From the NCBI RefSeq assembly GCF_900461555.1, contig NZ_UGOX01000001.1, positions 350,001 to 414,000 of the forward strand: a stretch of 64,000 bases of DNA, written 5' to 3'. Every line of letters starts with the position of its first letter. Within the stretch, counting starts at the first letter, position 1. The position numbers and the translations under genes are program-made. Shown here one piece after another: positions 28,235 through 62,154 of the stretch. Source of the DNA: Legionella quinlivanii. GTDB taxonomy: Bacteria; Pseudomonadota; Gammaproteobacteria; Legionellales; Legionellaceae. The notes under the pieces were generated by a model that was given only the letters and a program-made list of their open reading frames with translations, was not told where the DNA came from and did not search any database.

Positions 28235-29437
28235 ATGCATGACTTGGATAAAAAAAGGATTGTTTCAAGGCCTGTAACCAATAGCCAAGGTGAAAGTATA
28301 CTCTATGGCTTTGGATTTGACGAAATAAAGGGGCGTAGAAAAGAGCAGGAAGATGCTTTAGCCTGGGAAGTTTACGAGCCATCTATATTTGAAGATCTGA
28401 CACCGCTTCAAATAGCTCAACGCTTATGGACGTCTTATCGTCTGATTAACTCGGAAATTTTAAACGTAATCGATCAAAGCGGCACTACCGCTGTAACCAC
28501 CATTTTTAACCAGGAATATCTGATTAGCGCTTTAGTCGCTGATGCGGCAGTTTTTGTCGCTATCTATGATGAACACGGCGAGCTTGTTGGTGTTAGCAGG
28601 CTTAACCAACGCGTGCATAAACCGGAGTTGCAGTCTGAGCGAGACAGGATCTACGCAGCCGGCTCATCTATTGAAGGTGACGAAGGACGGGTACAGGGCC
28701 GGCTAGCTATCTCGCGAGCTTTTGGCGATAAGGACGTTAAAGGGATCATTCCCGATCCTGATCTAATGATTACCTACATGGGTGATATTCCCAAGGAATA
28801 CAGTGTACATCTTATTAGCAGCTGTGATGGATTTACCGATGCTGCAAAAAAAGACACACAAAGGAGCCATGAAAAATTATTGCATTCTTGCTTAACTGCT
28901 TTGAACAAAGGTAAACCGGGACGATGCCATCCAATAGAAATTGCCAGCTATCTGACCCGGCAAGCGCTTGCCCGGGGTTCACGAGATAATATATCCGTGT
29001 CTGTTCAAATTGTTAAACATAGCGGTAAATACGCCTCTTTTTGCGGGATGTCTGGTATTTACGATGGTCACGGCGGCTATCAGGCTTCGCATTACACCGC
29101 AGATCACATTGGGGATATTATCAAGAAGCAATTGCTTCTCTCTGAAGCAGAATATGCCGTGCAGGAGCAAAGTGCTATCCAACAGGAGGCTGATTTTCTG
29201 CGTGATAATCAGGATGTTAACGATGGATTCATTCTGAGTTTTTTCTCGCCTTCAGATGATGATACTTTAACGGATGATTCTAAAGAGGCTGCTGAACCAG
29301 TGATGGAGGAATCAGAAGAAGTGGTCAATGCCAAGGCAAGTGAAATATCCTCTGTCATCAATGTGACATTCTGGAGTTCAGAGGAAAAAAATATAACCCG
29401 AATACTTCCTGGAAATAAACCTCCGGAATTACCTTAA
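28235..29437 (+). CDS. PP2C-type protein phosphatase with relocated DGHGG segment
   Basis: A 400-residue PP2C-family protein with a rearranged order. N-terminal RRKEQEDA (residues 34-41) is the PP2C RxxxED motif. In ordinary members the DGHGG metal motif follows within ~30 residues; here it is absent and the chain goes on to SGTTA (82-86), RLAISRAFGDKDVKG, SSCDGFTD (Asp198) and SRDNIS (249-254), the normal last strand. Only then comes SGIYDGHGGYQASHYTADHI (277-281 = DGHGG), which looks like the missing strand and helix 1. An acidic tail (~310-400) follows. All metal-binding aspartates are present, so activity is plausible. Probably a manganese/magnesium Ser/Thr phosphatase, possibly a translocated effector. 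Confidence 0.8.
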   Translation: MHDLDKKRIVSRPVTNSQGESILYGFGFDEIKGRRKEQEDALAWEVYEPSIFEDLTPLQIAQRLWTSYRLINSEILNVIDQSGTTAVTTIFNQEYLISALVADAAVFVAIYDEHGELVGVSRLNQRVHKPELQSERDRIYAAGSSIEGDEGRVQGRLAISRAFGDKDVKGIIPDPDLMITYMGDIPKEYSVHLISSCDGFTDAAKKDTQRSHEKLLHSCLTALNKGKPGRCHPIEIASYLTRQALARGSRDNISVSVQIVKHSGKYASFCGMSGIYDGHGGYQASHYTADHIGDIIKKQLLLSEAEYAVQEQSAIQQEADFLRDNQDVNDGFILSFFSPSDDDTLTDDSKEAAEPVMEESEEVVNAKASEISSVINVTFWSSEEKNITRILPGNKPPELP

Positions 29438-29800: not shown

Positions 29801-32800
29801 ATGTCGCAGATTTTTACAGGTACAGGCTTGGGCCTTCAAGGCTCCTCTTTCAGCCAATTAGGTGCTTACGGCCCCCAGGGTAACGCTATTTTTGGTCAGA
29901 ATGGCCTCTCGTTGTATATCAATGCAGCCAATGGCAATCTGATACTAAAACAATCCGATGGTTTCCTGGCGAATCAGGGAATCGGTTTCAACTTATTTTC
30001 AACCTATAACGCTCAAGGAAAAAAAGCAGATCGCTGGCTGTTTAATACCCAAACTCATCTGATTATCGATGGCGAGCCCAACAGTGCGGGGGCGAGTCTG
30101 ACCCGAATCGGTGAGGATGGCCATTACAGCCGCTTTGTTTTTGATTCGGCGAGCAAGTCCTATCTGCCAGAGGACGGTGGTATTGAAAGGATACAATGGA
30201 CGGGCAGTGGATGGTCATATTCTCAAGGCGCATCGGCAGTCAATTGCGAATACAATCCAGAAGGCTTGCTGACAGCCTGGAGCGACCGGGATGGGCATCG
30301 CTTGAATTATGTGTATAAGGATGGCCAGCTAAGCGATGTGTTTGATTGCACTGGCCAGCAAAATATCCATTGGCAATTCCAGCAGGGCTTGCTGCAGGAT
30401 ATCAGCTTTTATGATCAGGGTTTACTTGTCCATCACCTCCACTATAACTATGACGATTCTGGCCGTCTTCGATTAGTTATCCAGGATCAGGACGATGGCA
30501 AGAGTTCGTGGGTAGCTTACGATTACCAGGATGATTCCGATCTCATCGAATCAATCCGCCAGAGCGATGGCTGTGCGCTGCATTTCAGCTATGACGAGCA
30601 GAACCGGATAAGCAGTATGTCTGATGGAGAGGGCAGGATAACTCAATTTAATTATGAGCCGGGCTGCACAAGAGTAAGCAATCAATTAGGGGAAACCTGG
30701 TGCTATTCATTTGATGATAAGGATCGTCTCACAGAAATCAGAGGTCCGGACAATAATACAATCAGTTATCAATACCAGGGCAATTATCTCAGTCGCATTG
30801 TGAAAGGCGGACTGGTATGGAATTTTATTTATAATGAAGCCGGAGACTGTATACGTACTGAGGAACCTGATGGTCAGATCATTCAAAGAACCTTTGACGC
30901 CGAACATCGCCTCTTGTCTGAAAGCAAATCTTCCGTGTTTAATGGAAATAATCATCCTGGGCAAACAGCGGCAGCCCATTATATCTATGATTCAAAGGGG
31001 CATTTGCGCTTTGCAATTTCTGATAATGGAACGGTTACTGAATATCGCTATAACGAGGCAGGGGCATGCCTCAATCGCCGCGTCTATTTAAAATCAGCTT
31101 TTGATTTAAGTCCTTCGGATTCAGGACAACCCAGCTTAAGTGATCTGGAGTCCTGGAGCAAACGCCAGCCTGCCGCGCAAATCAGTCTGGTCGCATATCA
31201 GTATGACTGGCGCGGACAACTGCAGCAGGAAATCCACTATCAATCAGTGGACGCTGCGGGAAACGGTTTGGAGCAAAACGCGTTAAGAACTTACTATCAA
31301 TATGATGCGCGCGGACGTTTGATTGAAAAAACAGTGCCCACTGAATGGGGTGATAACAAAACCTATTTTTTTTATGATGATTTGGGTCGGCTCACCTGTA
31401 CCAGAGATAATTTGGGTGTTATCAATCAATATGAATATGACGACAGTCATCAACGAATAATTCAAACGGACAGCAGGGGCTTGAAGACCCTTTATCTTTA
31501 TGATCGAAGCGGGCTTCTGTTGTCAAAGCAGCAGCTGGGTAACAATAACCGTGATTTCGGAGTAGAGCGGTTTGAGTATGATAGTGCAGGACGTCTGATT
31601 TCAGAAACCGACTGGGAGGGACGGAAAAGTTGGTATTTGTATGACAAGGCAGGGTTGCTTTGCGCCAAAGTCGATAACAAGGGTCATCTGAAGGAATACC
31701 GCTACGATGCCGAGGGCCGACTGATTCAGTCCATTGAATACGCCCAAAAAGTAGATGAACAGCAGCTTGGCGGTCTTGATCTGGAACTAATTCGTCCAAC
31801 TCACTCAAGTAAAGATCGCTACAACTGGACGTTTTATAATCAATACAATCAAATTGCTTATCAGGTCGATGCCACAGGGGCAATTATTGGTTATCGATAC
31901 GATGCACAAGGCCAATTGACTGAAAAAATCGCCTATGCAGAGCGTATAGCAATAACTAATTTGTTTGATGCCATAAAATCGGGAACGATAACCCCGGCTG
32001 AAAATGCTAATGACCGGCACTACCGTTACTATTATGATATTGCCGGGCGTTTGCAGGCCGAAATTAATGCTGAGGGAGCGGCAATCGGCTATCAGTATGA
32101 TCGCTTGGGAAACTGTATTGAAGTCCGTAAATTTTACAATAAGGCAATCCCTGGCGATCTGAAATCATGGGGGGAGATTGAGCCGGCTGCTTCTGACAAA
32201 GATATTGTTAATTACTCATTTTATAATTCGGCTGGTTTAAAGGAAGCGGATATTGATGGCGAAGGGTTTGCCACCAGCTATTACTACAATAACGCGGGTA
32301 TGTTGATCCAAAAAAGACAATATTTTACCGCTTTATCAAAGCCATTGCGTTTGTGTTTGGACAAAGCCTGGGACGATCAAAAACCCAACTGTCATTCCAA
32401 AGACAGGATAACCAGTTATCGCTATGACGAAAGGCAGTTATTAATCGAGGAAAATCAGTCAGGTGGTTTGACCTTGAATTACTTCTACGACAATAGCGGC
32501 TTAATGCTCGAAAAAAGAGCTTTCGATCGTTTCCGGGAGCAAAGCCGCGGTGCACGCTATCAATACGATGAACGCGGCCGACTGATAGCAAACCTCAGTG
32601 CAGAAGGCGAACAGTTATTGCGCAATATCGCGCTTTCAAAAGAGGAAATTGCCGCTATTTGGCAGCAGCATGCTATCCATTATAGTTACAGTAATAATGA
32701 TTCCTTACTGACTAAAACCAATGCGCTTGGGCAAACAGAACGCTATGTTTATGATGAGCAGGGTCGGCTGGTCTTTATTCTCAATGCCGATGGGGAAATC

Positions 32801-35800
32801 AGGGAACAGCAATACGATGACTTTGGGAATCTGACCCGTTACATTCAATACAGCAAACATTTTAAAAACCTGTCTCCTGAAATGAATGCTGGCAATTTAC
32901 ACGATTACCTGACACTGCACAAAGATCCCGCAGATGAAGTAACCGAGTATGAATACAACCATCTCGGGCAAGTCATCAGAACCTGTAAAGGTTCTCGCCT
33001 GGAAACAGCGACCCGCTACAATGCTTTTGGCGAAGTGGAGCAACTGACTCAGGATGCCCAGGGAAAATCCCCACTCACAATCAATTATTTCTATGATAAG
33101 CGGGGGCTTCTGGTTTTGCAGCAGGACAGTGCCACAGGAATTTTTCAGCCGCAATCCTGGAGTTACGATCGTTTTGGACGACTGATGATTGCAGTTGACG
33201 CCAATCAAAATAAGACCAGTTACAAATACAACCAGCGAGGGGAATGTACTGCTGTCATCAATGCGAAAGGTAAAGAGAAAACCATACGCTATGACGCGTT
33301 TGCAAGAGTAGTGTATGAGTTTGATCAGCTGCGGACCATTTATGAATATGATGACAGCAACAACAGTGTGACCATCAGACAGCCGGATAAAGGCAGGGAA
33401 GTCAAGACAGAATTTAATGCCTTTGGCGACAAGATTAGCTTCACTGACTTCAATGGTGCGGTTACCTCTTTCACATACGATGTGAATGGGCAATTAATCG
33501 GAAAAAATGAACCATTGGGTCTTCAGTCTTTTTATACTTATGACCGCGCCGGGCAATTAATCAAGGAATCAAAAGACGGCCGTATTACCCAATACACTTA
33601 TGATGCGGCGGGAAGAGTATTGATTAAAACCATCGATCCTGAGGGTTTGAACCTCACCACGCAGTATCATTTTGATGGAGTAGGTCGTCAACTGGAGGTT
33701 ATTGGCCCTGATCAGATTGTTAAACAGTTCAGCTACGACAGTGCTGGAAATTGTATTCGCAGTTGTATTAATCCATCGGGATTGAATTTAATTACAGAGT
33801 ATGAATATGACAATAAGAATCAGCTGACAAGACAAATAGTTCTTAATCCCGGCGGCAAAAACCAGGTTACTGCCTATAAATGGGATGCTTTAGGACGCTG
33901 TACCCAGAAAATAATTGATCCTGAAGGCCTGTCCCTGGTGACGCAATATACCTATGACGCCAAGGGCAATCTCTGCAGTGAAACTGATCCTCGGGGCAAT
34001 ACCCGGTATTGGATCTATGATGCCATGGATGAATGCCGGTTCCAGATTGATGCGCGGGGCTGTGTTACTGAGTTTAAATATGATTTGCATGGCCGCAATA
34101 TTTGCACTATTCAATATGCCAATGAAGTGCGCCTAAATGCAGTGGCTACAGAAAATGACATGAAACTGCTGCTTAAAAGCAGTAGCGCGGATCGCTACAG
34201 TTTCAAGCAATTTGATTCCGATGGACATGTGCTATTAAGCTTTGATCCAATGGGTTATGCCACTGCATACACCTATGATGTGCAAGGCAATGTCACTCGA
34301 ATAATACGCTATGCAAAACCGGCATCACTTGAGGATTTAAAGAACGGTATCATTCCGGTTTTTGGAAAAACGGAAGCCGGCCGGGTACAGCATCTGGCCT
34401 ATGACAGTTTAAACCGCCTGCGTTATCAGCTGGATGACGAACACCATCTAACTGAGTTTAGATATAATCAAGCTGGCGAAGTGGTTTCCAAAACCCGATT
34501 TGCCAACCGCTTTCTCTTCGATTTAACTCAATTCAATCAGGCTGAGATTGAAAAGTCGATATCCAGAAATCTGCAGTCTGATCAAACCAGCCGTTATAGC
34601 TATGATCAGGCAGGCCGATTGCTTGCTGAGTTAAATGCCGAAGGCTTTGCCGTTAAATATCAATATGATCGCCTGGGTAATCTTATTGCCACGCAGGGTT
34701 TTGCAATACCAGTAAGCGCATCTGATGAAAACTGGTTGTCTGCGCTTAAATCAGATAGTCATGATCGCATTACTCGTTCGGTGTTTGACGCGGCTGGACG
34801 GGAAATCTATCGAATCAGCGCCGAAGGACGTGTGATTGGCCGGCAATATGATGCAGTTGGAAATATTGTCTCTGAAACCAGTTATGCCGTCAGGTTCAAT
34901 CTATCAGAATACTCTGAGGAGAGCTTAGCGTTGGCGCTGCAAAACATCTTGGGAAGAACCACTGCTTATCAATATGACAGCAATGGGCGCCTGACGAATA
35001 AAACAGATGCCGAACATCAGCAGACAGTGTATGACTATGATGTGAATGGCAATCTCATCTCCAAAACAGAAGCGAATAAAGCGATCTGGCGTTATGATTA
35101 TGATGCGTCCAATCAATTAATTACTACCATATCCCCCGAAGTTGATATCGCCTTGGGTTATCAATCGCAACGTCGTTCGATCATTACTAGAAACCTGTAT
35201 GATAACTTCGGAAATATGATTAAAACGGTCAAGGATGCAGAAGGACTCTGCCAAATTCGTGAATATACTTTTGATGCAAACAATCATTGTATACAAATCA
35301 GTTATCCTGATGTTGCCGTCAATAATGCCGACTTAAGCGCCTCAATGAACCGGCAGGAAATAAAGAAAACGCTGAAGGAACTATTTCGATACAATGCTTT
35401 CGGTGAGGTCGAGGCGCAGTCTGATCGGGCCGGTAACTGGCAATATTTTACCTATGATCGCGAGGGGCATTTACGGTTTTCACTGAATCAGCTGGGCGCT
35501 TTAACGGAGTATGAATACAATGATTTGGGCCAGCTAGCTGGAAAAACCAGTTACGCCACCGGTATTTACCTCAAGGCCGGTAGTGAGGTAAACGGCGCAG
35601 AGCTTGCCGATGCCCGTAAAACCAATGGCCTGGATCGTCACGAGTTTTATCAATACGATCGACTGAATCGGCTAATTAAAACAGAAAAAGACAGCATGCG
35701 TTCATTCAACGCGTCCAGCCGCAGTTATGAGTTCTCTACACCCACAACTCGTTATCAATACAATGCCTTCGGAGAAGTCATCAGGACCGATGTCTTGCTG

Positions 35801-38800
35801 CATGAGGGAGTCTATGCTTCCAGCCGTCGATACTATGATAAAGATGGATTGCTCACTGGAGAACTTAATGCTGAAAATTATTTAACCCAGTATCAATACA
35901 ATGCCTTTGGTGAATTAAGCCAGCAAACCGAGTACGCCGAGCGAGCCAGCTGCTTTGATGACTTTGATGTTAAACCACCTGCAAGCGCCAGTCTGGATCG
36001 AGTGTTTCTTTATCAATACGATGCTTTGGGAAGGGTTCAGAAAAAAATACAGCGTCAGGTGACTTATCAGCAATTGAATAGCAATGGACAACTAGTGAAT
36101 TTAACCGCTGATATTGTTAATTCCTACGAATACGACGGCATGGGTAACCTGGTAAAAATGACCGATGCCGAGGGGCAGAGCAGTTATTTCAGCTATGATG
36201 CGCTTGGACAGTTAAAAGCCAAAATGGGCCCGCAAACACAGTCTGGGCGCGCTGCCGTATCGTATACCTACGATGGCCTTGGGCATCTCATAGAAACTAT
36301 TCAATATGCGAATGGAGCTACACTCGACAGAGAGGGATTTATTCTTCCGGCAGCATCAGCCAATGACCTTCACACGCTTGATTTTTATGACAGCAATGAT
36401 CAATTGCTCCTGCAGCAGGATGCGATGGGACATTTCAAATTTTATAGTTATGACGAACAAGGCAACATGGCCCGTGCCTGGGAGCTACTTTCCCAGATTG
36501 ACGGAAGCCAGCGGCTTATAGACAAGCGTTATTTTTATGATGCCGGCGGTCATTTGCTGCGAGCGGCTACTCGAAAAGCCAATGGCGACTGGGCCTGTGA
36601 GGATAGCCAATATAATGTGTTCGGCGAAGTGGCTCATAAGGGAATTAATGGACAACTTAATATCCATTATGACTACGATCAGGCGGGGCGTTTATGGCGC
36701 TCTAACTCCGAGGGCTATTATCAATTGTTCATCTATGATTTGAGCGACAAAGTCACGCAAATCATAACCTCTACTAATGCCTTTCGTCCGGCTGCCGGGG
36801 AAGATGGCGTGGATCTGTCGGATAAACAATTTGAAACTGCGCGATCTTTTCAAACGGAATCCTGGGAGTTCGATCTTCAGCGTCAGAATAATCTCTATGA
36901 CAATCTGGGCAATTTGCTGGCGCAAAGCCGCGAGTCGACAGAAAATCCACTGACGATTAACGATAGTGTCCATCTGAAAACAATCAATCAGACGTACAGC
37001 TATGATCGCTGGGGAAATGTGTTGAGCCATCGTAATGCCAATGGCTATGAAACAAACTATCAGTATAACGGCTTAAACCAGATCACTGAACAGGAGCTTC
37101 CCCAGGTAATGGCTTATGATGAACATGGTGTCGGCCGATTAATCAATCCTCGGCTGTTGTATGCCTACGACCGCCTGGGTCGATTAATAGGTTTTACGGA
37201 TGCTAATGGACATACGGTAACAAAAGTATTGGATGCCTCAGGGAATGTAATACAGGAGCGAGATGCGAAAGGTGGGCTGAGGCAGAAATACTATGATATT
37301 TTAGGCCGGCTGAAAGAAAGCATCAATGAGTTGGGCGGTTCTACGGTTTATCTTTACGACAAAGCAAATCGTTTGACCGGCATTCAGACCTCGGCTAGTA
37401 AACAGCAATATTTCTACGATGAGGCTGGCCAGCTTCTGCAGCAAATAGATGGTGAAAACAATACTTCTCTGTTTGTGTACGATGAGTTGGGAAATTTAAT
37501 CGGCAAGCGAAATACTTTTGGATATTGGCGATCAATGGTTTATGACGATGCCGGTCATAAACTTGCCGAAACGGATGAGTTAGGCCATGTACAAAGCTGG
37601 AGCTATCAGGATGGACGACTGGTTTCGCACACTGATCTTGGCCAGCATCAGACCATTTATCGATATAACCGAAACGGTTTGCTGCTTTCAGAATCAGGCT
37701 CTGGGCGCTCAATAGACTATCATTACCAGGGCGATGGCAGTCTTAGACAATACGTGGATAACACACGCGGCGAGGTGCTGAATTATCAGTATGACAATGA
37801 GGGAAATGTCAGCAGCAAACAAAGTTCTCGCATCAATCCTGGAAAAGACGGCTGGCTGCTTGAGTCTGATCACTATGAATATGACAGTCTCGGACGATTA
37901 ACCTCTGTCAGGCGAGCCCATCCCGATGATGTGGATAGCCGTTTCCCGCAGCAGGATAAAAGTCTGTTATCAATCGATTATCAATACGATGCGGCGAGTA
38001 ATTTAAGGCATAGTCTTATCACCGCAAACTATGGCGGATATGAAAAAGCCAGTAGTGATGAATACTACAGTTATGATGAAAACAACCGCGTTAAAGTCAG
38101 TAAAGGAAAATTGCTCGATGGCAATATACAAATTGATAAAGATCAGGGAAGTCTTCTTGCTTATGATGCCGCTGGTAATTTAACCGGGGCGGATAAATAT
38201 GAGGAAGAGATCCTTCATCATTATTTATATGGGTACAATAAGAATAATCAACTGGAGTGGACGCAGAAAGATAATATAACCCTGGAGTCACGAAAGTATA
38301 ATCAGGCGGGGCAGGTCATAGAGGAGCGTCTCTTTGATGCGAGGGGAAATGTCGCTCAGATTAATCGCTCAAGTTATAAAAACGGCTTTTTGGATTATGT
38401 AACTACCACCCGCCCGGTAGGAAATCTTGAGCATCTGGTGAGCCAAAACACGTTTTACTACGATGTTGCAGAAAATCTGACGGCGGAAAGGCTGCGGGTG
38501 GAAAAACAAGGGCAAAACGCGGGATATACACTGACGCATGAATATCGTTTTGCCTGGTGGGATGATTATCGCCGCTCAGAAGATTACGCTACATTGAGTA
38601 TTGACTATCAGGCCTCAACCTATGGTTTGAGCATGCGAATTTATGATGTGAATGGTCAATTACAAGACGCGATTGATCAACAGCCCGACTCCAGCGGCAC
38701 CAACAGCGCGCATTATTCCAGCAGCGCTGTGGACGGCATCCGCTCGCGAGAGGATCAAGCCGGTAAAACCAGCTATCTCAGTGTGAATGGGAAACATATT

Positions 38801-41035
38801 GCGGATATAAAACTGGATGCCGCCACCGGCAAGCAAACGTTGACAGTCTACGGCGGTTTTACTCCGGAAGGCAGCGCCCATCCTTCACAAAAAACCAACC
38901 CATGGATATGGAATCCCAGCGTCGGTCATGGCAATTTCAACGTCTTTTTTCAGAACGGCAGAACGACTGCGGAATCCATGCAATCCCGAAACGAGCCGAA
39001 TGATGCAATAAGCCCCAATAGCCCGCAGGATAATTTAGGAAGCTACACCGTCAGTGCAGGGGATACTTTGGAGTCAATCGCCCTGCAGGTCTATGGCGAT
39101 AGCAGCTTATGGTATTTAATTGCAGATGCCAATGGCATCACCAGTCGTGAGGAGAGGGCGGGAAGTTCTTCACAAATGCATACAGGACAGCGGCTGGTTT
39201 TGCCTCCTGTTTTCTCAAATCAGCATAATAGCTCCGATACGAACAACGTGCTCAGAGAAGATTATTTTATAGGCAACACCAGTGCGACTGCACCCATGCC
39301 CAAACCGCTATCAACGGACTCATCCCCTGTTCAACGAAAGCATCATAAATTGCTCGGCAAAGTACTGACTGCAGTAGTCGGTACCATTATTACCGTTTTG
39401 GCTGCAGCAGCAGCTGCGAGTATCCTTGCTCCTTCTGCCCTTGCGATTAACGGCTTGGGGGGTATCTTTAAATTGGGATTATCCACTCTGTGGGGCGGAT
39501 CTTCTCTAGGTATTAGTTTAGGAGCAAGCTTAAGTGCCGGTTTTATTGGCAATATGGCCAGCCAGGGTGTTGCCAGTATGGCCGGCTTACAAGAAGGAAT
39601 GCATTGGGGTGCTGCATTGACCACCGCATTAGCCACTATGGCAAGTGCCGGTTTAATGCGCGGCATGAAAATAGATGGATTTGCAAAAGATGCTCTAGGC
39701 TTTTTAAACGACAAGTCGCCTACTCTATTCAATTTTTCTTCTGCAGCAGAAATGATGAGTCAAAATGCACTCAGCCAGGGAATAACACTCGCTGCCAACC
39801 AGCAAAAGCATTTCGACTGGCAAAGACTGGCCGCCAGTGGTGTAACAGCAGGTCTGATGGGAGGAGAGGCAGGGGGAAGAGTCAGTAATGCCTTAAGAGC
39901 AATCGATAAAACTGAAATGATTAATACTCAGCTTAATTCATTACTAAATCAAGGCAGCCACGCCCTTCTAACCGGCCAAAGCATCAACACTTTGCAGATA
40001 CTGGAAGACAATCTGGGAGATAGCATAGGTCAGGGCATTATGAAATCAGCAATTCAAGATTCTGAAACTAATGAGCCAGACACCGACAATTCCAGCTCAA
40101 GCCCGGAAGACAGCATCGAATCCCTCTATCTCGACAATGACGAGAGTATTGTTCTGAACCTCAACGAAAATTCAACCGCCCAATCTATCCTTCCCCCGAC
40201 AGATCCTTTATCCTTGGCAACAAGCAACGAATTAGACTTAAGAAACACCCTCACGGATCTATACAATTATGGAAAGAACTCAGTAATGGATAGATACAAC
40301 AGCTTAACCCAAGGTTTAAATGACCTTGAAAAAGAATACAACGTCAGATCCCACTTCTATGACATATTAAGAGATCTGAAACCAGAACCGATTGACAATA
40401 CCCCCAGCTGGCTCGAAGATGTCGGCTCGTTTGGAATTGATCTCATACCCGTAGTAGGCCAAATTAAAGGAGGCATGGAGTTTTATACCGGCCGAGACAT
40501 GGTAAGTCTCCAGGAAATGAACGGCAGTATGGCCCTTCTATCCCTAATTCCCCTCGCCAAACCACTCATCAAAACAGTTAAGTTTTTGAGTAAAACTAAG
40601 GCTGGAAAAGTGATTTCAACATATAAAGCAACTATCATAAGACACTCAGCAAATGCAGCTATAGCTGGTGGGAGTTCTTATGGTGCAGCTGTGTCAACGG
40701 GGGATGAGCATCCCATACAAACGGCTATACTGGCAACATTTGCGGGAATGATTGTCGGGTGCAAAGTAAATCCTAGTAGAGCAACTGCCGCTAAAATTAA
40801 TTTTCTTGCAGGTGGGAGCATAAGCTACGCTAATCAAGGAGTTGATTGGTATAAGACTGGGAAACCTGTAAGTTTAGGAAAAGTTTTCATAAACGCTACT
40901 TTTACAAGCCTAGGGGCTGCTTGGACTTGGGGCATGCCTGCAATTACAGCGGCAATGCTGAGATTTCAAACTGAAACGCCATCCATAAAAATAGGGGAAG
41001 AGCTCTATGACAAAATTTACCAAACAAAATCTTAA
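29801..41035 (+). CDS. Giant YD-repeat (RHS-type) protein with LysM and pre-toxin domains
   Basis: A 3744-residue protein. From about residue 100 to 3000 it is built of dozens of YD repeats (YxxDxxGRL; for example YQYDARGRLIE, YRYDAEGRLIQ, YTYDAAGRVLI), the beta-shell of RHS and Tc-C toxins. A LysM domain follows (YTVSAGDTLESIALQVYG..., ~3081-3130), then an Ala/Gly-rich hydrophobic segment (~3180-3300). A pre-toxin TG-like module (IDLIPVVGQIKGGMEFYTGRD, ~3545-3565) precedes a hydrophobic C-terminal region (~3620-3744), the expected toxin tip. The canonical DPxGL self-cleavage motif was not found. There is no signal peptide. The stop codon lies inside the next gene (29-base overlap), the arrangement expected of a toxin and its immunity gene. 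AT content rises near 40600, suggesting an exchanged tip. Confidence 0.9.
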   Translation: MSQIFTGTGLGLQGSSFSQLGAYGPQGNAIFGQNGLSLYINAANGNLILKQSDGFLANQGIGFNLFSTYNAQGKKADRWLFNTQTHLIIDGEPNSAGASLTRIGEDGHYSRFVFDSASKSYLPEDGGIERIQWTGSGWSYSQGASAVNCEYNPEGLLTAWSDRDGHRLNYVYKDGQLSDVFDCTGQQNIHWQFQQGLLQDISFYDQGLLVHHLHYNYDDSGRLRLVIQDQDDGKSSWVAYDYQDDSDLIESIRQSDGCALHFSYDEQNRISSMSDGEGRITQFNYEPGCTRVSNQLGETWCYSFDDKDRLTEIRGPDNNTISYQYQGNYLSRIVKGGLVWNFIYNEAGDCIRTEEPDGQIIQRTFDAEHRLLSESKSSVFNGNNHPGQTAAAHYIYDSKGHLRFAISDNGTVTEYRYNEAGACLNRRVYLKSAFDLSPSDSGQPSLSDLESWSKRQPAAQISLVAYQYDWRGQLQQEIHYQSVDAAGNGLEQNALRTYYQYDARGRLIEKTVPTEWGDNKTYFFYDDLGRLTCTRDNLGVINQYEYDDSHQRIIQTDSRGLKTLYLYDRSGLLLSKQQLGNNNRDFGVERFEYDSAGRLISETDWEGRKSWYLYDKAGLLCAKVDNKGHLKEYRYDAEGRLIQSIEYAQKVDEQQLGGLDLELIRPTHSSKDRYNWTFYNQYNQIAYQVDATGAIIGYRYDAQGQLTEKIAYAERIAITNLFDAIKSGTITPAENANDRHYRYYYDIAGRLQAEINAEGAAIGYQYDRLGNCIEVRKFYNKAIPGDLKSWGEIEPAASDKDIVNYSFYNSAGLKEADIDGEGFATSYYYNNAGMLIQKRQYFTALSKPLRLCLDKAWDDQKPNCHSKDRITSYRYDERQLLIEENQSGGLTLNYFYDNSGLMLEKRAFDRFREQSRGARYQYDERGRLIANLSAEGEQLLRNIALSKEEIAAIWQQHAIHYSYSNNDSLLTKTNALGQTERYVYDEQGRLVFILNADGEIREQQYDDFGNLTRYIQYSKHFKNLSPEMNAGNLHDYLTLHKDPADEVTEYEYNHLGQVIRTCKGSRLETATRYNAFGEVEQLTQDAQGKSPLTINYFYDKRGLLVLQQDSATGIFQPQSWSYDRFGRLMIAVDANQNKTSYKYNQRGECTAVINAKGKEKTIRYDAFARVVYEFDQLRTIYEYDDSNNSVTIRQPDKGREVKTEFNAFGDKISFTDFNGAVTSFTYDVNGQLIGKNEPLGLQSFYTYDRAGQLIKESKDGRITQYTYDAAGRVLIKTIDPEGLNLTTQYHFDGVGRQLEVIGPDQIVKQFSYDSAGNCIRSCINPSGLNLITEYEYDNKNQLTRQIVLNPGGKNQVTAYKWDALGRCTQKIIDPEGLSLVTQYTYDAKGNLCSETDPRGNTRYWIYDAMDECRFQIDARGCVTEFKYDLHGRNICTIQYANEVRLNAVATENDMKLLLKSSSADRYSFKQFDSDGHVLLSFDPMGYATAYTYDVQGNVTRIIRYAKPASLEDLKNGIIPVFGKTEAGRVQHLAYDSLNRLRYQLDDEHHLTEFRYNQAGEVVSKTRFANRFLFDLTQFNQAEIEKSISRNLQSDQTSRYSYDQAGRLLAELNAEGFAVKYQYDRLGNLIATQGFAIPVSASDENWLSALKSDSHDRITRSVFDAAGREIYRISAEGRVIGRQYDAVGNIVSETSYAVRFNLSEYSEESLALALQNILGRTTAYQYDSNGRLTNKTDAEHQQTVYDYDVNGNLISKTEANKAIWRYDYDASNQLITTISPEVDIALGYQSQRRSIITRNLYDNFGNMIKTVKDAEGLCQIREYTFDANNHCIQISYPDVAVNNADLSASMNRQEIKKTLKELFRYNAFGEVEAQSDRAGNWQYFTYDREGHLRFSLNQLGALTEYEYNDLGQLAGKTSYATGIYLKAGSEVNGAELADARKTNGLDRHEFYQYDRLNRLIKTEKDSMRSFNASSRSYEFSTPTTRYQYNAFGEVIRTDVLLHEGVYASSRRYYDKDGLLTGELNAENYLTQYQYNAFGELSQQTEYAERASCFDDFDVKPPASASLDRVFLYQYDALGRVQKKIQRQVTYQQLNSNGQLVNLTADIVNSYEYDGMGNLVKMTDAEGQSSYFSYDALGQLKAKMGPQTQSGRAAVSYTYDGLGHLIETIQYANGATLDREGFILPAASANDLHTLDFYDSNDQLLLQQDAMGHFKFYSYDEQGNMARAWELLSQIDGSQRLIDKRYFYDAGGHLLRAATRKANGDWACEDSQYNVFGEVAHKGINGQLNIHYDYDQAGRLWRSNSEGYYQLFIYDLSDKVTQIITSTNAFRPAAGEDGVDLSDKQFETARSFQTESWEFDLQRQNNLYDNLGNLLAQSRESTENPLTINDSVHLKTINQTYSYDRWGNVLSHRNANGYETNYQYNGLNQITEQELPQVMAYDEHGVGRLINPRLLYAYDRLGRLIGFTDANGHTVTKVLDASGNVIQERDAKGGLRQKYYDILGRLKESINELGGSTVYLYDKANRLTGIQTSASKQQYFYDEAGQLLQQIDGENNTSLFVYDELGNLIGKRNTFGYWRSMVYDDAGHKLAETDELGHVQSWSYQDGRLVSHTDLGQHQTIYRYNRNGLLLSESGSGRSIDYHYQGDGSLRQYVDNTRGEVLNYQYDNEGNVSSKQSSRINPGKDGWLLESDHYEYDSLGRLTSVRRAHPDDVDSRFPQQDKSLLSIDYQYDAASNLRHSLITANYGGYEKASSDEYYSYDENNRVKVSKGKLLDGNIQIDKDQGSLLAYDAAGNLTGADKYEEEILHHYLYGYNKNNQLEWTQKDNITLESRKYNQAGQVIEERLFDARGNVAQINRSSYKNGFLDYVTTTRPVGNLEHLVSQNTFYYDVAENLTAERLRVEKQGQNAGYTLTHEYRFAWWDDYRRSEDYATLSIDYQASTYGLSMRIYDVNGQLQDAIDQQPDSSGTNSAHYSSSAVDGIRSREDQAGKTSYLSVNGKHIADIKLDAATGKQTLTVYGGFTPEGSAHPSQKTNPWIWNPSVGHGNFNVFFQNGRTTAESMQSRNEPNDAISPNSPQDNLGSYTVSAGDTLESIALQVYGDSSLWYLIADANGITSREERAGSSSQMHTGQRLVLPPVFSNQHNSSDTNNVLREDYFIGNTSATAPMPKPLSTDSSPVQRKHHKLLGKVLTAVVGTIITVLAAAAAASILAPSALAINGLGGIFKLGLSTLWGGSSLGISLGASLSAGFIGNMASQGVASMAGLQEGMHWGAALTTALATMASAGLMRGMKIDGFAKDALGFLNDKSPTLFNFSSAAEMMSQNALSQGITLAANQQKHFDWQRLAASGVTAGLMGGEAGGRVSNALRAIDKTEMINTQLNSLLNQGSHALLTGQSINTLQILEDNLGDSIGQGIMKSAIQDSETNEPDTDNSSSSPEDSIESLYLDNDESIVLNLNENSTAQSILPPTDPLSLATSNELDLRNTLTDLYNYGKNSVMDRYNSLTQGLNDLEKEYNVRSHFYDILRDLKPEPIDNTPSWLEDVGSFGIDLIPVVGQIKGGMEFYTGRDMVSLQEMNGSMALLSLIPLAKPLIKTVKFLSKTKAGKVISTYKATIIRHSANAAIAGGSSYGAAVSTGDEHPIQTAILATFAGMIVGCKVNPSRATAAKINFLAGGSISYANQGVDWYKTGKPVSLGKVFINATFTSLGAAWTWGMPAITAAMLRFQTETPSIKIGEELYDKIYQTKS

Positions 41036-50364: not shown

Positions 50365-53300
50365 TTAACCAGCGTAACCTCTATCCAGTTCCTGAGCCGG
50401 GTGTGGCTGTTCTTTTCTTTGTATGAGATAGGCGCTTAAAGATTCAGCCCGGCTTAATATTTCCTGACCTATAGTTTGCAAATGGCCAGAAAACTTCTCT
50501 TCTTTTACTATTTGAATTAAGCCGGCTAATTCTTCCCCGCCCATATCATTTAAGTTCCCTTCATGGGTTCGGATAAATTGATTAAGTTTGTTCTTAAGGT
50601 TTGATACATTGAGATTTTCCTTTTGATTGGCTGTTTTCCAAAAGGTTCTGTCCATAAAGCTGTTTCTTGAAAAAATATCATCGAGATAATCTTTAGCCAT
50701 CGTCTCAAGTCTAGCTGTTAACTCCATGATGTCTTCTTTGCAACGGGTTTCATAAGCCTGAAAATCCTGTAGCACGGTTGTATCCTGTACCCAGTGTCGT
50801 ACAATCTGATCTTCCATCTGGTTGATGGTACTTAACAAGCGGCTGTGGCCACTTTGATTGAGTTTACGCCCGCTTCGTGCCTGATTTTTCTGGATATCGT
50901 CATCGAGTATGTTATTTCGGGTTTCACGAAGAACATTCAGAAGTTCAATATAGCGATTGGGACTTGCTGCTTCTTTATTATTAAGTCTCACTAGTAAAGA
51001 ATTGATTTGTTGATTACGCGCTTCCGATTTAAACCAGGCCCCTTTGTATTGTTGGCCCAGCCGAGTCAGGTTCTTTTCGAGATCAGTTAACAAAGCCTTA
51101 CTCTCTTTTTCGCCATGAAGAGCATTTAAATCAAGATTGGGTTTGCCGATAATTGCTAATTCATTGGCTATCTGGAATAAGCCTTGCTGTTGAACTATGC
51201 TCAGGTCGCGCACCAGACGCAAGTTGCTCGAGGGCTTCTGCGCTAAAATTCGCCTGCTTTCCTGAGTATAGTGTTTAAGGCCATCTTCCAAAAGCAGTTC
51301 ATTTTTCTTGTCGGACCAATTAATGCGGCGGGTGTCATCCTGTTTAGCATTGACAAAGGCCTGATGATTTAACATATGCAGCCACATCACGCGGTTACGG
51401 GTCTGATTGACAGTTTTGTTATCAAATCGATACCAGCTTTCCTGTCGAATATTTTCTTTCATCAGCTCCACGTCACCGCGGCAATCAGAAGCTTTTTTGT
51501 AAAACCACTCAGCCATATCCTTTACTGCGTCTTGATGCGCATCGGGAGTATCGCTCAGATAGACCGCCAGATTATCGTGCAAATACTGTTCTTGCGGCAG
51601 TTTATTGGTGCTTTGCTGAATAGCATTCAGTTTTCCAATTTCGGCGGAGTTGTTTTGTTGAAAACGATCAATTCCTTCAAAAATGTAAGCCAATTCCTGC
51701 GGGCTGGATTTAGGTTCGCTGCCCACTGCCATAAATAATGCCGTTAAAAGAGGCTCTAATTCCCTGTCTTTAATGTTTCTGTTTTCAGCATAACGCAGCG
51801 ATTGCATCAGACTGGCTGGATTGGCCAGTATATTAACCTGGAAGCCGCTCCATACTTTAAGCAAAATTGCTAAAGAACTGGCAGGTAATAATTTTAAGCT
51901 CTGATCAAAGGCTTTTTTATCGGCAAGGTTGAGAAGAGCGTTTTCTTCAACAATTTTTCTGATGCTGTTTATTGATTGACAGCAAGCCGAGAATTCGTTG
52001 AGATTTTGATTTAATAAACGAGCGACCCTCAAGAGGGCGCTGATATCCGTCTGGGTTACTGAGAGATCTCCCATTGCGGTTTGCCAATCTTCGAGGCTGA
52101 ATAAACAATGGGCTGCATGCGCTTGTAATTCTTTACTCAAAGCAGGCATTTTATAAAATAGGGAGACAAACCATTGAGCGCCTTTTACCAAATCACTATG
52201 TCTTTCATGCCTTGCTCTTTGCAGGAATTGGTCTAATCCCTGCAAGAACTCTTTGAGTTGCTCGCTGGATTCCTGCTGTAATGACCAGTTGGCAGAGCCA
52301 AGGATCAGGCAATAAGTATTGAACAGCTCGGCAGTCATATGTTGTTGATTAGCCAAGAGCAACAGATGTCTTATGCCCGCATCAGTAAATGAATGCTGTG
52401 CAAGGATTTGCTGTAATGTTTCCAGGCTGAAAGGAGGATTATTCGTAAAGCGTATTAACTCTTGACTAGATAATGGCATTTTTTCAAGCATTGACAGATA
52501 CCACTGCGAACCTTCGGCCAAATTGGAATGACCCTGAACTTTCGCGGATTGCAAAAATTGAGTATAGGTTCGCAGATCTTGTCTTAGCTTTTCTTTAGTT
52601 TCTCCTTGTTTAGACCAGCGGATTTCAGCCAAAGATTGACAGCATAGGCTAAAGTCTTCGAGACTCATCAATTGCTCATTTGCTTTGTGAAGTAAAATCT
52701 CGATTCCAGCTTCGTCAAAGGAGTGTTTCTCAAACTGCGCCTGCAAATCCTGCAGTTTAAATGGCGGCCTGAGAACAAAGCGCTCCAACTCTTGCCGGAT
52801 AGAGGGCATTTTTTGCAGGCTGGATAAATACCAGAGCGAGGCATTGCCTAATTCGGTATTGCCTTGCTGCTCTGCGGCCTCCAGGAATTGCTGGTAGCTC
52901 TTAAGCATCGGCCCCGCCTGTTCTCTGGCATTTGCTTCCGATTTCCAGGTGCTCAGCATCTGATTTATCACACTAGCCGATTGTTTCTGTTGTTCTGGAG
53001 AGAAATGGTATTTGCTTACCCACAACTGGTTTAATACCTTCAAGTGAGAAACTTGCAAATTGGCAGTCATTTCGGGTGAGATCACCGCAAGTTGCAATCC
53101 CTGATACCAGCCTTTTCCTTGCTCGGTCAGCAGACTGCCAATCACTGGAAGTGCGGATTCTGTCATGCCTTCGGCAAGAGCAGTCCACATCGCTCGCAGT
53201 TCGGACCGATAATGACCTCCATTAAGATTCCACCAACGCTCGGTTTTCTTCACCAGGCTGTCGAAGGAATCCCAATTAATGCCTTCAGAAAATTGTTGCA

Positions 53301-56300
53301 TGACCTTGGCAAACTGCTGCAGAAATAATTCGCGATCTTCTTCAGGCAGCTGACTCATCAAGTCTTCACAGCGACGGAGCATTCGAATGCGCTGAACATA
53401 GTTATTTTGGGTCGCTTCTTTCAGTTGAGTAAACAATTTTCCTTCATCATTGGGGAAGCTATGGGCCAAGTGCCAGAGGCTTTCATTGTCTTCATAACTC
53501 ATTGCTCTACCGGAAAAGCGGCGTGACATCTCTGCCATCGGAGTATCATGAAGCAGATTATCAATATTTTCCAAATAGTGCTTAGCCCAGCGTAGTTGTT
53601 CATATTCTGAAAACTGCCCCAAATAATTGAGCAGAGGCAGGATCTGGCTTACCCGGTCTTTATCTTCCAGAAGACCCGGGCCTGTCATCCACTGGCTCAG
53701 TATCTGTTGTAGCGAGGGGTGTAATTTTCCACTGGAGCGTATAAATGACTGGCGGATTTCGGATGACACCGCTTTTAAAATATCATCCGCATTGGGAGTA
53801 AGCATGCCGCCAGCTTTGATTTGGCCATGTATAGGTGAGGCCTTGGTTATTTGCTGTACACGGATTTTCAATTGTTCACTGAACTGCTCAATACTCAAGA
53901 ATTCCTGGGCGTCATGAGTGAAACTTTCTAAAATGTCCGCTTGAGTTGCCAGGGTTGCCAGCTGTTCGGGAATGCTGTCCAGAAGCTCATGGCTCTTTGT
54001 GCCAAGAGGCAGGGCCGAGAGGATTGCACCCAGATTAGCCATGTTATAGGTACTCTTGTCAGCGGGCTGGAATTGCTCCAGCTGAATTAGCAAAGTCATT
54101 TCCGCAGCCGGTGTGAAGTTGAAGGGAGTGCTGTTCACTTTGCCCATTAACTCCTCATAATTCGCCTGTAAATCCTTCGCCGCTTCAGCAATTCGCTCTT
54201 CGATAAGGCGAACCTTTTCTAAAGAAGTTAAGTGATTCAAGGCGGAAATACTCAGCCATTTTTTCTCAAGACTATTGAGATGGCGAGTCAGCATGCTGGT
54301 AAATTCGGAGGCTTGTCCCGGATCAAGGAAGGTTGAAATCAGGCGCATTCCCCAAGCGGAAAATTGAGCGATCCCGGTACGAAAACCTTGAGTGGCTGCA
54401 TTTTGCAAGCTAAATACATATTCACGCAAAAGCATAACCTGCTCAAACAGTTTTTCATTTTCAGAATTACCAGGAACTTCCTGTAAACTCGCTTTGATCT
54501 TGTCGTGTTCGAGCCCTGGTGTGGTCTCAATAATTCGCAATAATTGCTCGCGTTCCTGTTGTAACTCGTCTTCGAGATAAAACTGAAACACTTGTCCTTC
54601 TTCGCCGTTTCGAGCGGTACGACCACCGGTTTGTAATAAATCATTGACATCACCGGTATCGAAAATAAATACGGCTTCAACGCCGACGTTATCACCGCGT
54701 CCAAAACCTGATGCTACCAGAGCGATCCCTTTTTGCTTTTTACCCCCCTTCCATTCTTCCATCCTTTGTTTTTTTGCAAGGACTTCGCTGCTGGTTTCTT
54801 TATCTTCATTGGTATAAAAAAGGAGGTTTTCCAATTCTTCCTTGCTTAATCGCTCGCTAAGAATGGTTTGGATTTCAAGAACCTTCTTATCGTTTTTACA
54901 AGCAAAAAGCACTGATTTATTTTCTGCCATGCAAAGCTTAAGCTGTTGCAGCATAGCCTCAATCCGCTGCTCCTGATTTCGATAAAATTTGGCATTATGC
55001 CAGTATCGCAAATCGCTTTGATTGGTTGATACATGCAATACCTGCGTTCCATGTTCCTTATTCAGTGCCTGCGCTTGTGAAGTGGAAATTGTCGCCGTGA
55101 AGCCTTCCCAGCGTTTCCATAAGCGGGGTATCAGTGTAGCGGCAACTTGTGAACTGATGATATGACTTTCTGGAAGCACATGATAGTTTTGAGCCTCATT
55201 CTGTTTTTTGGCTTCCTCGTTGAGGTTCGTTGCTACTAACTGATGAACTCCTGCGCTAAAGGTAGAGCCGGTCGCTTTATGATTGTTAGTTGTAAGAGGA
55301 ACAATTTCTTTTAAGAGATAAGAAGCACCGCCTATCGGCACATTGTCTTCCAGGACTGAATATTTTTCGCCTCGTTGCAGTGACATGGCTTCATGGGCAG
55401 ATTGGATCCAGCTGACCAATTGTAAGCCGTCACGCGCCAGTAAAACCAGGTATTTGGTTTTCTCCTCATCATCCTGCGCTTTTTCAATCAGAAATTCTAA
55501 TAATGCCTCAACACTTTCCCTGGTGATTTCTTCTATCTTAAAGCGGTCTTTATTCGCTTCATAGAAATCATTTAATGCCCGGTAAAACCAAATCATTTGT
55601 TTAGGAGTACGTCCAGTAGGGCGGGCATAGTTAAATGCCATTTTTCGGCCTTGACCAAAATAGGTGTCATCGAATTCATCGCCCAAGCCTTCCGATTTAT
55701 CAGGATCAATGTCAATCGGTTGACCCTGGAAGCTTTGTTCATCAAGGAACAGGGATAGATCTCCCAGTGTGGTATAATGAACCTGGGCCCCGGTATAACT
55801 TTCCCGACTCGATTTGGGAGTAATTGTCGAAGTGCTTATATTTAAGTAGTCATAAAAGGCCTGATAATCTTCCAAATCCCGCTCAGCCAAACTGCGTTTG
55901 GCGGTAAAGACGGTGGCAGTTTGACCTTGAGCCGCTTTTTTGGCGGCGCGCATGGCCACGAAATGGCTTTTTCCTTCACCAGTGCCCAGACGCAGCACCC
56001 GACTGGATGCGGTGACGGCCACATCATTGGCAATCAAGGCGAATTGCTGAGCCATATGCGGATATTTCCGGGTAGTTAAGCCAAGGGCGTGAAATTCCAG
56101 CGCCCAGATTTGCACCTGCCGGCTATCGCTCGCAGGGCTTTTACACAGGCGATGAAATGCTTCAGCTAATTCATCCCGGCCCAGATCTGCAATCGCTTTG
56201 TTGCAACCTTCGACAAAGGCCTCACCGGTTTCCAGCCGCTTCAATTCAGCAAACATCAGGCTGATTCTTGCAATTTCCGTTGCGGTCAAAGGACGATTTA

Positions 56301-59300
56301 CCTTCCCGTCAGTAACCCGGGTTGAAGTAAACATGCGCCGCAAATCCGCTGCGCGCGTTTTAGGCACATGACTATAGTCTGGCCGTATTTCTGGATGAGG
56401 ATTTTTAAGAAAGCCGGATAATTCCTTTTTAAAGTCATGGCTGGTAGCGGCTCGTTTGAGCAAACGTATTAAATCATCCGCACCTGGTGATGGCTGCTTG
56501 GGATAAGTAGCCGCCAGTGCGGTCAGTTCATCTAGGGACAATCGGCTTAAGCGCTCTATGAGTTTAGGGGCTTTGCGATCCAGTTCATATTCATAGGCTT
56601 CCTTGTCGCGCAAACCGGGTTGCAGGCAGCTCCAGGCGATAATGTGGAATACCAGGGCACGCTCTGCACTTCGTTCATCACCCAGTTTCGCCATGACCTG
56701 ATTGAAAAGGTTCTCTTCACGAGGATCTGCGGCGATTGCCTTTAACCAGAGGGCTGTAGATTTGTGCCAGGTCTCTTTTACAGAAGGGCTGGGCATAGGA
56801 TGGTTCAATAATTGCCGTAGTTTGGCAAAACGATTTTCCATGCTCACTTTATTGAGACTGCTATTCAATATTTGCAAAGCCGAGTCGCGACTGGCTGCAT
56901 GCTGCTCGGAGGATAAAAGATTAATGGCCTCAGTCAGCAGGCTGGTTGTGCGCGCGTACTGGTATTCATGCAATGCTAACTGGCATAGCGCGGTTTGCTG
57001 GGATCTGCTGAAAACGGTGTTCTTCAGAATGCCTTTTAAAGGGATAACCAAGTCCTGTGGGAAATCTTTTTCTGTATTATCAATAGGTTTTGCTTTCAAT
57101 AGCTCGTCGGCAAGAATAACTTGCAACATATCCAATGGAAAAGGGAGCTGTTCATCTTCAGGTTTTAATACATCCAGAATCTTACTGAAGTAACTGGCGC
57201 TCCATACCTGATCTTTCGCCGTTTTTTCAAGAATGGCCAGCAGTGGCTCCACCTCATTTAAATAGGTGCGGTTAAGCTGTAAGCTGGTAAAAAAAGCAAG
57301 CAGGGGTTGTAAAGCCTCTGCGGCATCACCTTGGGTGGGAATAACAATATGGTTTTTAAGAAAAGTCCACAAACGATGTTGATGGTCGACAAACAGGCCT
57401 AGTTTTGCAGGGCGCTCTTCTTCAACAAGATTGCGAAATTCTCCTGAACGCGAATATTTGAATACAATGTTTTGATCAGAAAGTCTGCTAATAAACTGCT
57501 TGCGGATCGCTGTGCGGTTGACCGGTTTATTGTTCATTTCTCCGATAGTTCTGAGAAAATCGTCCCAGTTTTTCGGCTGATGCAATGCCTGGGGATTACC
57601 CTGATTAAAATTAACGGAGAATAAATGGTTTAGTAACAAATCCAACTCATTCATTACAGCTAAAGTTAAACCGTCTGTCGCTTGTATAAAATCTCGTAAT
57701 TGCTTTTCGGTAAATGCGCCAAATAAGGTAGCCGCTTTGTAGGCCGCCAGTTGCAGGAATTGAGGATGACTGACTTTAAAGGCAAGTTTAATTTCAAAAA
57801 GGTTAAGGAAATCCGGCATTTTTAACTGATTGCCGCCTTCCATCAATAAATCCAGCGCTTCCAGGAAATTTCCATGAGGGTAAGCTGCGAGTAAAGCCTG
57901 TCCCCGCCGAGTTTGTAAAATATCCTTGGCTGCATCCAAAGTATTGAGTGTAATGCTGAGTTGAGCATGGCCCAAACGAAAAATAGCCTCATGTAAATGG
58001 CTGGCAATACTGGTCACTAATGGAACGGGAAGGCTTTGCACTCGATCAACTATGGCAGGCATCTGACGCGCGTCATATTGAGTATAGAGAAGCCAGAGCA
58101 GCTGATGGCGCGATAGTAAATCATTGTTGGCGAGTTTTTCACTAATCAGACTGTAATCTTCATGGCTGAATTGTGCGCGTGACGCTAATGTTCTGCGAAT
58201 ATTCAAGGCCGCTTCATTTGAAGTCCAGCTGAAGATTGAAGATAACTCCGGAGCGTAAGTGGGCTTGCCATGTTTAAAATGAGATAATGCAAGTTCCTCA
58301 TCAAAATATTTGAAGTGTTCTTGCTGAATAGCATAGTGCACGCCGCCATGCGTTAAATCCATTTTATGCAGCGATTTTAAAAAGCGCGTTTTCTCCTCCT
58401 GGGCAGGAAGACTGCGCAGGGAGTCGAGTATCCGATCGACTTCGACCAGCATATTTCGCGGTTCAAGCTCTGAAAACTCATCGCCAGATAAAGAAAGATC
58501 CATTTTAGCGAGTTCTTTGACCAGATAATCAAAGGCTTTCCATAGTACTTCAGTGTGTTCAGCAGGCACATGATTTAAATGTTTACTGCAAAAGCCTAGC
58601 CAGGCTTCTCTGTGCGGCTGGGCTCTGGCAGGAGCCAAATGCTCAATCATGCTGTCAATGGCACTGAAGAAAGCAGGACTAATATAGAAGTTATAGTTTT
58701 CAGCTTTACTTAATACCTCAGATTGAAACGCATCGAAAAACTGTATGCCTAACTGGTTTTCAATTTGGCGAAACTTGGCAATCAGTAACCCTAGCGTTTC
58801 CTCGCCATTACGATAATAAACCTGGCCAAGCGCTCGGAGGGTGCTGATATCCGCCTGCCCGCGTTTAGCCCACATTTTGGTCCAATCAGCCAACTCGGGT
58901 TGACGGGAAAGTAGAATGTCACAGGCGCGGGGAAGTTGTAGCAGCAGATCCTGCTCTTTCAGTTTGAAAAATGCATTGATAGCCTCACGCCCACCGTATT
59001 GCCAGGCTTGAATGAACACCTGCCAGTGTCGAAGCACACGAGGAACGTCTTTCACCATCGCTGCTATATCAGGATTTTTTCTCGAAAAGGTTTTCCATTC
59101 TTCGGAATAATCTTTTTCCGGTTGCAATACTTCAAAAAGAACGAGAGGCTGAAAATCGTCGGCAGTTTCCAACTTGGGCCTGTGCTCAAGATAATGGTCA
59201 ATGTTGAATTGACGAAAGTCGCCTTCCCAAAACTCCTGAACAGGTTTAGTCACTTGCAAGTCAACTGTCAGCGGTGTTGGAACCCCGCAGACATAGCCCA

Positions 59301-62070: not shown

Positions 62071-62154
62071 GAGACACCTCAAAGCATGGAAGTAGGCTAA
62101 GTTTAGAGAGATTTCCTTAAAGAAATATTAAGAACTCGGTGGGTATAGATGTCA

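Follow-up and report, generated by a model that had tools for sequence, protein, structure and literature searches.

Phosphatases of the PP2C/PPM family carry their conserved motifs in the order RxxxED, DGHGG, GTTA, RxxGD, DG and DN, and in their catalysis a metal-bridging water attacks the phosphate. In eukaryotic PP2Cs, the strand-helix unit that carries DGHGG (segment B) lies between the strands around RxxxED (segment A) and the bulk of the domain (segment C). Eukaryote-like PP2Cs have been noted in Legionella and Chlamydiae, and Legionella sequence(s) were placed inside the eukaryotic PP2C clade (PMC4524716). Two Legionella effectors with a PPM fold, the de-AMPylase SidD and the dephosphocholinase Lem3, act on host Rab1 (PMC3656104, PMC10115812). 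Here, we describe a gene for a PP2C of 400 amino acids (P0001), located on the + strand at 28235..29437 of the window, i.e., the whole stretch of 64,000 nucleotides that was analyzed. Sequence, active-site residues and the predicted fold place the protein among the PP2Cs, but its chain order differs from theirs: segment B comes after segment C, giving A-C-B.

Order of motifs and segments in the window protein

The open reading frame (ORF) runs from ATG to a stop codon, and the whole protein matched the Pfam family PP2C (PF00481) with 90.1 bits compared to a curated cut-off of 20.3 (E = 2.4e-25). In the translation, RKEQED was found at residues 35–40 (28337..28354), SGTTA at 82–86 (28478..28492), SRAFGD at 160–165 (28712..28729), CDG at 197–199 (28823..28831), DN at 251–252 (28985..28990) and, as the last of the motifs, DGHGG at 277–281 (29063..29077). 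The positions and order given in a preliminary description of this DNA were right to within one residue. The canonical order, in which DGHGG is second, agrees with the alignments to solved PP2Cs. Segment A, the strands around RxxxED, covers residues 24–46 (28304..28372), with strands at 26–31 and 41–46 in the predicted model; segment C, which begins with the helix preceding SGTTA and ends with the last canonical strand, covers residues 55–262 (28397..29020); and segment B, the displaced strand and helix, covers residues 266–301 (29030..29137).

Circular permutations are well known among proteins. Rotation of A-B-C yields B-C-A or C-A-B, and the observed order is neither of these, so a circular permutation was rejected, as the preliminary description had held. 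A conventional DGHGG unit hidden between A and C was rejected as well. No DGxxG-like motif was found in residues 42–81, the interval in which that description had proposed to look for one, and the stretch between A and C (aligned with P0001 residues 46–55) measured only 7–16 residues in 41 aligned proteins, which is too short to hold a strand and a helix. On the other side of C, the stretch from N252 to D277 was 19–25 residues long across the 41 rows, and the loop from C to B was short, 9 residues (262–270) in the model and up to six fewer in relatives, approximately 3 at the shortest.

Sequence homology of the segments

Two profiles were used, A2 from 41 aligned proteins (the window protein and 40 relatives) and A3 from segment B alone (30 sequences). 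When A2 was compared with human PPM1B, the alignment fell into three pieces out of order: profile positions 12–44 matched PPM1B 13–45 (segment A, a weak 3.6 bits), 273–299 matched 56–82 (segment B, 13.7 bits) and 50–267 matched 95–298 (segment C, 72.5 bits). From this alignment RxxxED was placed at approximately positions 34–39 of A2 and DGHGG at 279–283. The PF00481 match of the whole protein consisted of two stretches, the better of which started only at profile position 95. The middle piece and the C-terminal piece taken alone matched PF00481 positions 96–255 (74.2 bits) and 36–70 (18.7 bits, just below the cut-off), respectively.

The search of PDB sequences with A3 gave 54 matches at E ≤ 1, of which 53 belonged to the PP2C/PPM family (best E 9.3e-7), TAB1 and pyruvate dehydrogenase phosphatase among them; the only other match was one designed protein (E 0.81). 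With the DGHGG segment of ABI1, A3 aligned over 26 positions comprising the strand, the motif and the start of the helix, with 31.5 bits for the sequence. Because a profile made from B alone finds almost only PP2Cs, segment B descends from the canonical DGHGG unit and is misplaced in the chain. A chance occurrence of the motif was rejected on the same ground, the match extending beyond the motif itself.

Active-site residues and predicted structure

Residues are numbered as in PPM1A, D146 (D103 in the window protein), H62 and D243 included. The numbering of PPM1A E37, D38, D60, G61, D239 and D282 follows PMC10115812 and that of R33 follows PMC3656104, and PMC4524716 describes what the motif-5 aspartate does. 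The window protein holds the equivalents of all metal- and phosphate-binding residues: R33, E37 and D38 in RKEQED (R35, E39 and D40), D60 and G61, followed by H62, in DGHGG, D146 as D103, D239 in CDG (D198) and D282 in DN. D103 (28541..28543) is the counterpart of the third-metal aspartate and lines up with the aspartate of GDS in PPM1B. That all metal-binding residues are present had been claimed from the first inspection, and the alignment carries this further, since the equivalents of E37, D38, D60, G61, H62, D146, D239, G240 and D282 were identical in 41 of the 41 rows of A2, as were D165 of SRAFGD and both residues of DN. The R33 equivalent was R in 39 rows, with H and S in the other two, and the D243 equivalent was D in 24, E in 16 and N in 1. 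In a 31-row alignment including three further bacterial families, QED, D, DG, DN and DGH were invariant.

In the predicted monomer, residues 271–279 formed a strand and residues 283–301 a helix, both with a predicted local distance difference test (pLDDT) of 97–98, and the predicted fold was the alpha-beta-beta-alpha sandwich of PP2Cs. Segments A and C superposed on canonical PP2Cs without B at about 2.1–2.8 Å over 215–235 residues in most rows. The structural aligners used, VIA and Foldseek, are sequential, that is, they follow chain order; for this reason B could not be placed by either, and the root-mean-square deviation reported by Foldseek was high (4.2–12.5 Å). The C-terminal tail (residues 344–400; 29264..29434) was mostly predicted to be disordered, with pLDDT below 50 at residues 344–347 and 350–400, and three PPM1A superposition rows reached residues 372–374, inside this low-confidence part.

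Pfam control

PF00481 was searched over 369 genomes of the class as a control, and 150 rows among the matches listed were analyzed. A joined span, defined as a match from profile position ≤ 41 through ≥ 130 (the DGxxG part and what follows it), was present in 125 of the 139 rows listed from genomes other than the known carriers of the permuted family, compared to 0 of the 11 rows listed from carrier genomes. In the family of the window, taken as Legionellaceae from its named relatives, 72 of the 140 genomes contained between them 87 PF00481 matches, and 81 of these matches began past profile position 50. As the control rows were mostly joined, the missing N-terminal span in the family is not a weakness of the Pfam model.

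Distribution within Legionellaceae

A search for homologs, which the preliminary description had suggested, found the A-C-B order to be common to many Legionella genes. The nearest relative was the L. quinlivanii copy (85% identity), around which approximately 8 kb were collinear with the window at approximately 92% identity; this region takes in the beginning of the downstream RHS gene. The relatives found in annotated genomes came from Legionella species and, in a few cases, from assemblies assigned only to Legionellaceae or the gammaproteobacteria. Among 53 related genomes, 16 had a match, with 22 matches in total, 20 of them given as loci; DGH.G followed DN in 19 of the 19 uninterrupted ORFs from these loci (18 DGHGG and 1 DGHVG), the stop-interrupted L006 being left out. 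In the named genomes of GTDB, a set that overlaps with the 53 genomes, 36 loci were confirmed and 33 gave an ORF with DGH.G after DN. The other three were L042, for which no frame was found by the script, and the fragments L055 and L056, the latter also with DGHGG after DN.

In the order, A2 gave 103 matches in 74 of 143 genomes. A match was called collinear when it started at profile position ≤ 45 and ended at ≥ 285, and so extended from the strand of RxxxED to DGHGG; 79 of the 103 were of this kind, and two of these started at positions 37 and 38 (G088, G076). A collinear A2 match was overlapped by 75 of the 87 PF00481 matches in the family; among the other 12, one had the canonical order and 11 were undecided by this test. 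The former, L155 (G024:C233), was the only PF00481 match in the family read as canonical, and is a PP2C of bacterial type with a reading frame for a Ser/Thr protein kinase nearby. The latter were, by the tables, fragments, interrupted or diverged copies; among those that were read, L135, L145 and L149 still had a DGHG- or DGVG-like motif after C, and L139, L140 and L141 had no such motif. These findings show that the A-C-B order is a conserved trait of the family and not a peculiarity of one gene.

Some individual members were observed in other arrangements. The genome of the window encodes a second permuted PP2C, approximately 47% identical to the window copy (L160; C1:1700407-1701354). In Fluoribacter gormanii (L051), a permuted PP2C opens an ORF that extends beyond the end of the locus and has at least 1679 residues. 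L145 (G077:C34) is a 1207-residue ORF on the - strand with two C-B PP2C domains in tandem, in which DGHGH and DGHGP replace DGHGG and no RxxxED profile match was obtained.

Relatives outside Legionellaceae and possible origin of the permutation

In the class, 12 of 369 genomes matched A2, three of them in the family of the window. Proteins with the A-C-B order and DGH after C were found in G368 (f115), G457 (f105) and G304 (f17), and diverged copies, with DGFG instead of DGHGG and no RxxxED match, in G385 and G480 (f135). The match in G163 (f25) covered A and part of C only, and in G342, G367 and G464 it was confined to the CDG-DN part of bacterial PP2Cs with the canonical order. In the orders of G457 and G368, the A2 family was present in 1 of 14 and 1 of 10 genomes, respectively, and this scattered occurrence suggests that members outside the family were acquired by transfer rather than by inheritance. 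In a sample of the phylum, 6 of 398 genomes matched, namely the genome of the window and five others via the CDG-DN part of other bacterial PP2Cs. Viral contigs gave 91 pattern matches, among which no relative was confirmed, and no relative was found in the plasmids searched.

The permutation is old and typical of the eukaryote-like PP2Cs of Legionellaceae, and probably followed the acquisition of a gene from a eukaryote. If a tandem duplication to ABC-ABC lost its first B together with its second A and C, the result would be A-C-B. Given the strand exchange in SpoIIE and the tandem C-B domains of L145, a route by duplication or segment exchange is plausible, if unproven. An even chance is given to the full account, according to which this is an active enzyme family with a non-circularly permuted fold and segments traceable by sequence, derived from a canonical eukaryotic PP2C via a tandem-duplicated or segment-swapped intermediate whose DGHGG unit came from the neighbouring copy, fixed early in Legionellaceae and diversified as exported phosphatases.

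Other genes of the window

Directly downstream of the phosphatase gene, at 29801-41035 (+), lies a gene for an RHS-repeat protein of 3744 amino acids (PF05593, E 1.9e-174), the first part of which also adjoins the phosphatase gene in L. quinlivanii. An ORF of 3905 amino acids at 50365-62082 (-) had, as its sole Pfam match at E ≤ 0.001, a SecA DEAD-like stretch at residues 1949-2106 (E 6.3e-10).

Discussion

We consider it likely that the window gene encodes a metal-dependent PP2C/PPM phosphatase of the Ser/Thr type in which segments B and C were interchanged non-circularly long ago, in which B docks in cis and catalysis proceeds as in other PP2Cs, and which probably has a eukaryotic source and is probably exported by Dot/Icm. 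This supports the preliminary description, which took the displaced strand and helix for a transposition that preserved function. The DGHGG unit would have traded places with the bulk of the domain, and the short loop would join the last canonical strand directly to the DGHGG strand. This strand would fill its canonical slot within the same chain and give the equivalents of D60, G61 and H62 to the metal site, to which A would contribute its ED, B its DGH and C the residues D103, D198 and D251, with R35 binding phosphate.

Several observations weigh against this interpretation. Residues 1–52 alone gave no Pfam match, and segment A, weak by sequence alone, is identified by its invariant ED and the predicted model. 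The superpositions leave out B, as the aligners are bound to chain order, and its docking at the metal site is a proposal. Of the control rows listed, 14 of 139 lacked the joined span, and 5 of the 87 PF00481 rows in the family spanned the profile in a seemingly canonical fashion. Four of these (L062, L073, L156 and L004) were A-C-B by separate segment profiles or motifs and appear joined because the alignment links A to C across a gap; the fifth, L155, is truly canonical. Some relatives are degenerate, with DGFG in L094 and L095 and no DGH in L139, L140 and L141, and are, to judge from these residues, probable pseudophosphatases. Finally, IcmQ was matched in 0 of the 5 genomes with members outside Legionellaceae.

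Loss of metal residues in these relatives would fit a family in which the shuffle abolished activity and left a phosphoprotein-binding or scaffold role. The window gene, in contrast, keeps its metal residues, and their invariance together with that of H279 in all 41 aligned proteins is unlike relaxed selection, which makes a pseudophosphatase improbable here. We regard as similarly improbable that B acts in trans, two subunits swapping it so that each DGHGG completes the metal site of its partner. Only 9 residues in the model, and about 3 at the least, separate C from B, and short hinges can favour segment exchange. Moreover, in the SpoIIE crystal the ligand Asp628 comes from the partner subunit (PMC3517971), so a PP2C core can take this part from another chain. 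Two confident predictions, in contrast, had B packed within the monomer, although only monomers were modelled.

A motif of four or five residues could by itself recur, and the original B might have been lost and a DGHGG-like strand have arisen anew at the C-terminus. The match of the B profile to ABI1 over 26 positions, and its near-exclusive yield of PP2Cs, make this very improbable. An error of assembly or gene calling is hardly credible and was rejected, because the same order is kept in single ORFs across many species and contigs; the collinear 8-kb region in L. quinlivanii also speaks against it.

Export of the phosphatase into the host by Dot/Icm is predicted and rather favoured, because of its likeness to eukaryotic PP2Cs, which were its closest solved relatives in the PDB sequence search, the clade placement in PMC4524716, the presence in the same genome of the Dot/Icm component IcmQ (E 1.5e-76) and the precedent of SidD and Lem3. 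The Legionella sequences of PMC4524716 probably belong to the permuted family; the word "permut" is absent from the main text of that paper. A phosphatase working inside the bacterium would agree with the members in genomes where IcmQ went undetected. This alternative appears doubtful, though less so than those above, in view of the eukaryote-like sequence, the varying length of the C-terminal extensions, the patchy presence of PF00481 matches in the family and the PPM-fold effectors already known in Legionella (PMC3656104, PMC10115812).

No report of a permuted PP2C was found among the open PubMed Central papers listed in the searches or in their available passages, bioRxiv being outside the search. 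Neither "PP2C" nor "PPM" occurs in the main text of the effector atlas PMC11696984 or of the genome paper on L. longbeachae, PMC2824747, and "permut" and "Legionella" are absent from that of the bacterial PP2C survey PMC12088040. A standard profile search shows most members as PP2Cs without DGHGG, and they can therefore be mistaken for phosphatases that are truncated or inactive. Should they be exported, roughly half of the Legionellaceae genomes examined would, as judged by Pfam, encode members of a phosphatase family directed at the host.

In comparison with known systems, the motifs and metal residues of the window protein are the same as those of human PPM1A, PPM1B and PPM1K and plant ABI1 and HAB1. 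SidD and Lem3 have their ligands in the canonical order, D110-G111 before D326 (PMC3656104) and D82, D105-G106, D254 and D394 (PMC10115812), respectively, whereas the window protein is permuted. SidD is without the R33 equivalent and the M1/M3 aspartate (PMC3656104); the window protein has both, as R35 and D103, and was not assigned to the SidD type. Neither SidD nor Lem3 was among the PDB sequence matches or the VIA structural matches listed. In SpoIIE, strands 1–3 with the ligand Asp628 detach and are supplied by another chain, a swap between subunits in the crystal (PMC3517971), whereas that of the window protein is within one chain. The interchange has its closest precedent in the HK97-like fold of the BPP-1 major capsid protein, a natural non-circular interchange of two elements that was called rare in nature (PMC3863775). 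That capsid protein has no recognizable sequence similarity to the standard form, and in the available text both this and another case of internal interchange (PMC2096629) rest on structure and not on sequence. In the window protein, by contrast, B and C are traceable by sequence in what is likely an enzyme. Here, the chain of a signalling enzyme has been severed and rejoined through its active site, but a large family retains the metal residues, so that sequence comparison can trace how A-B-C became A-C-B.
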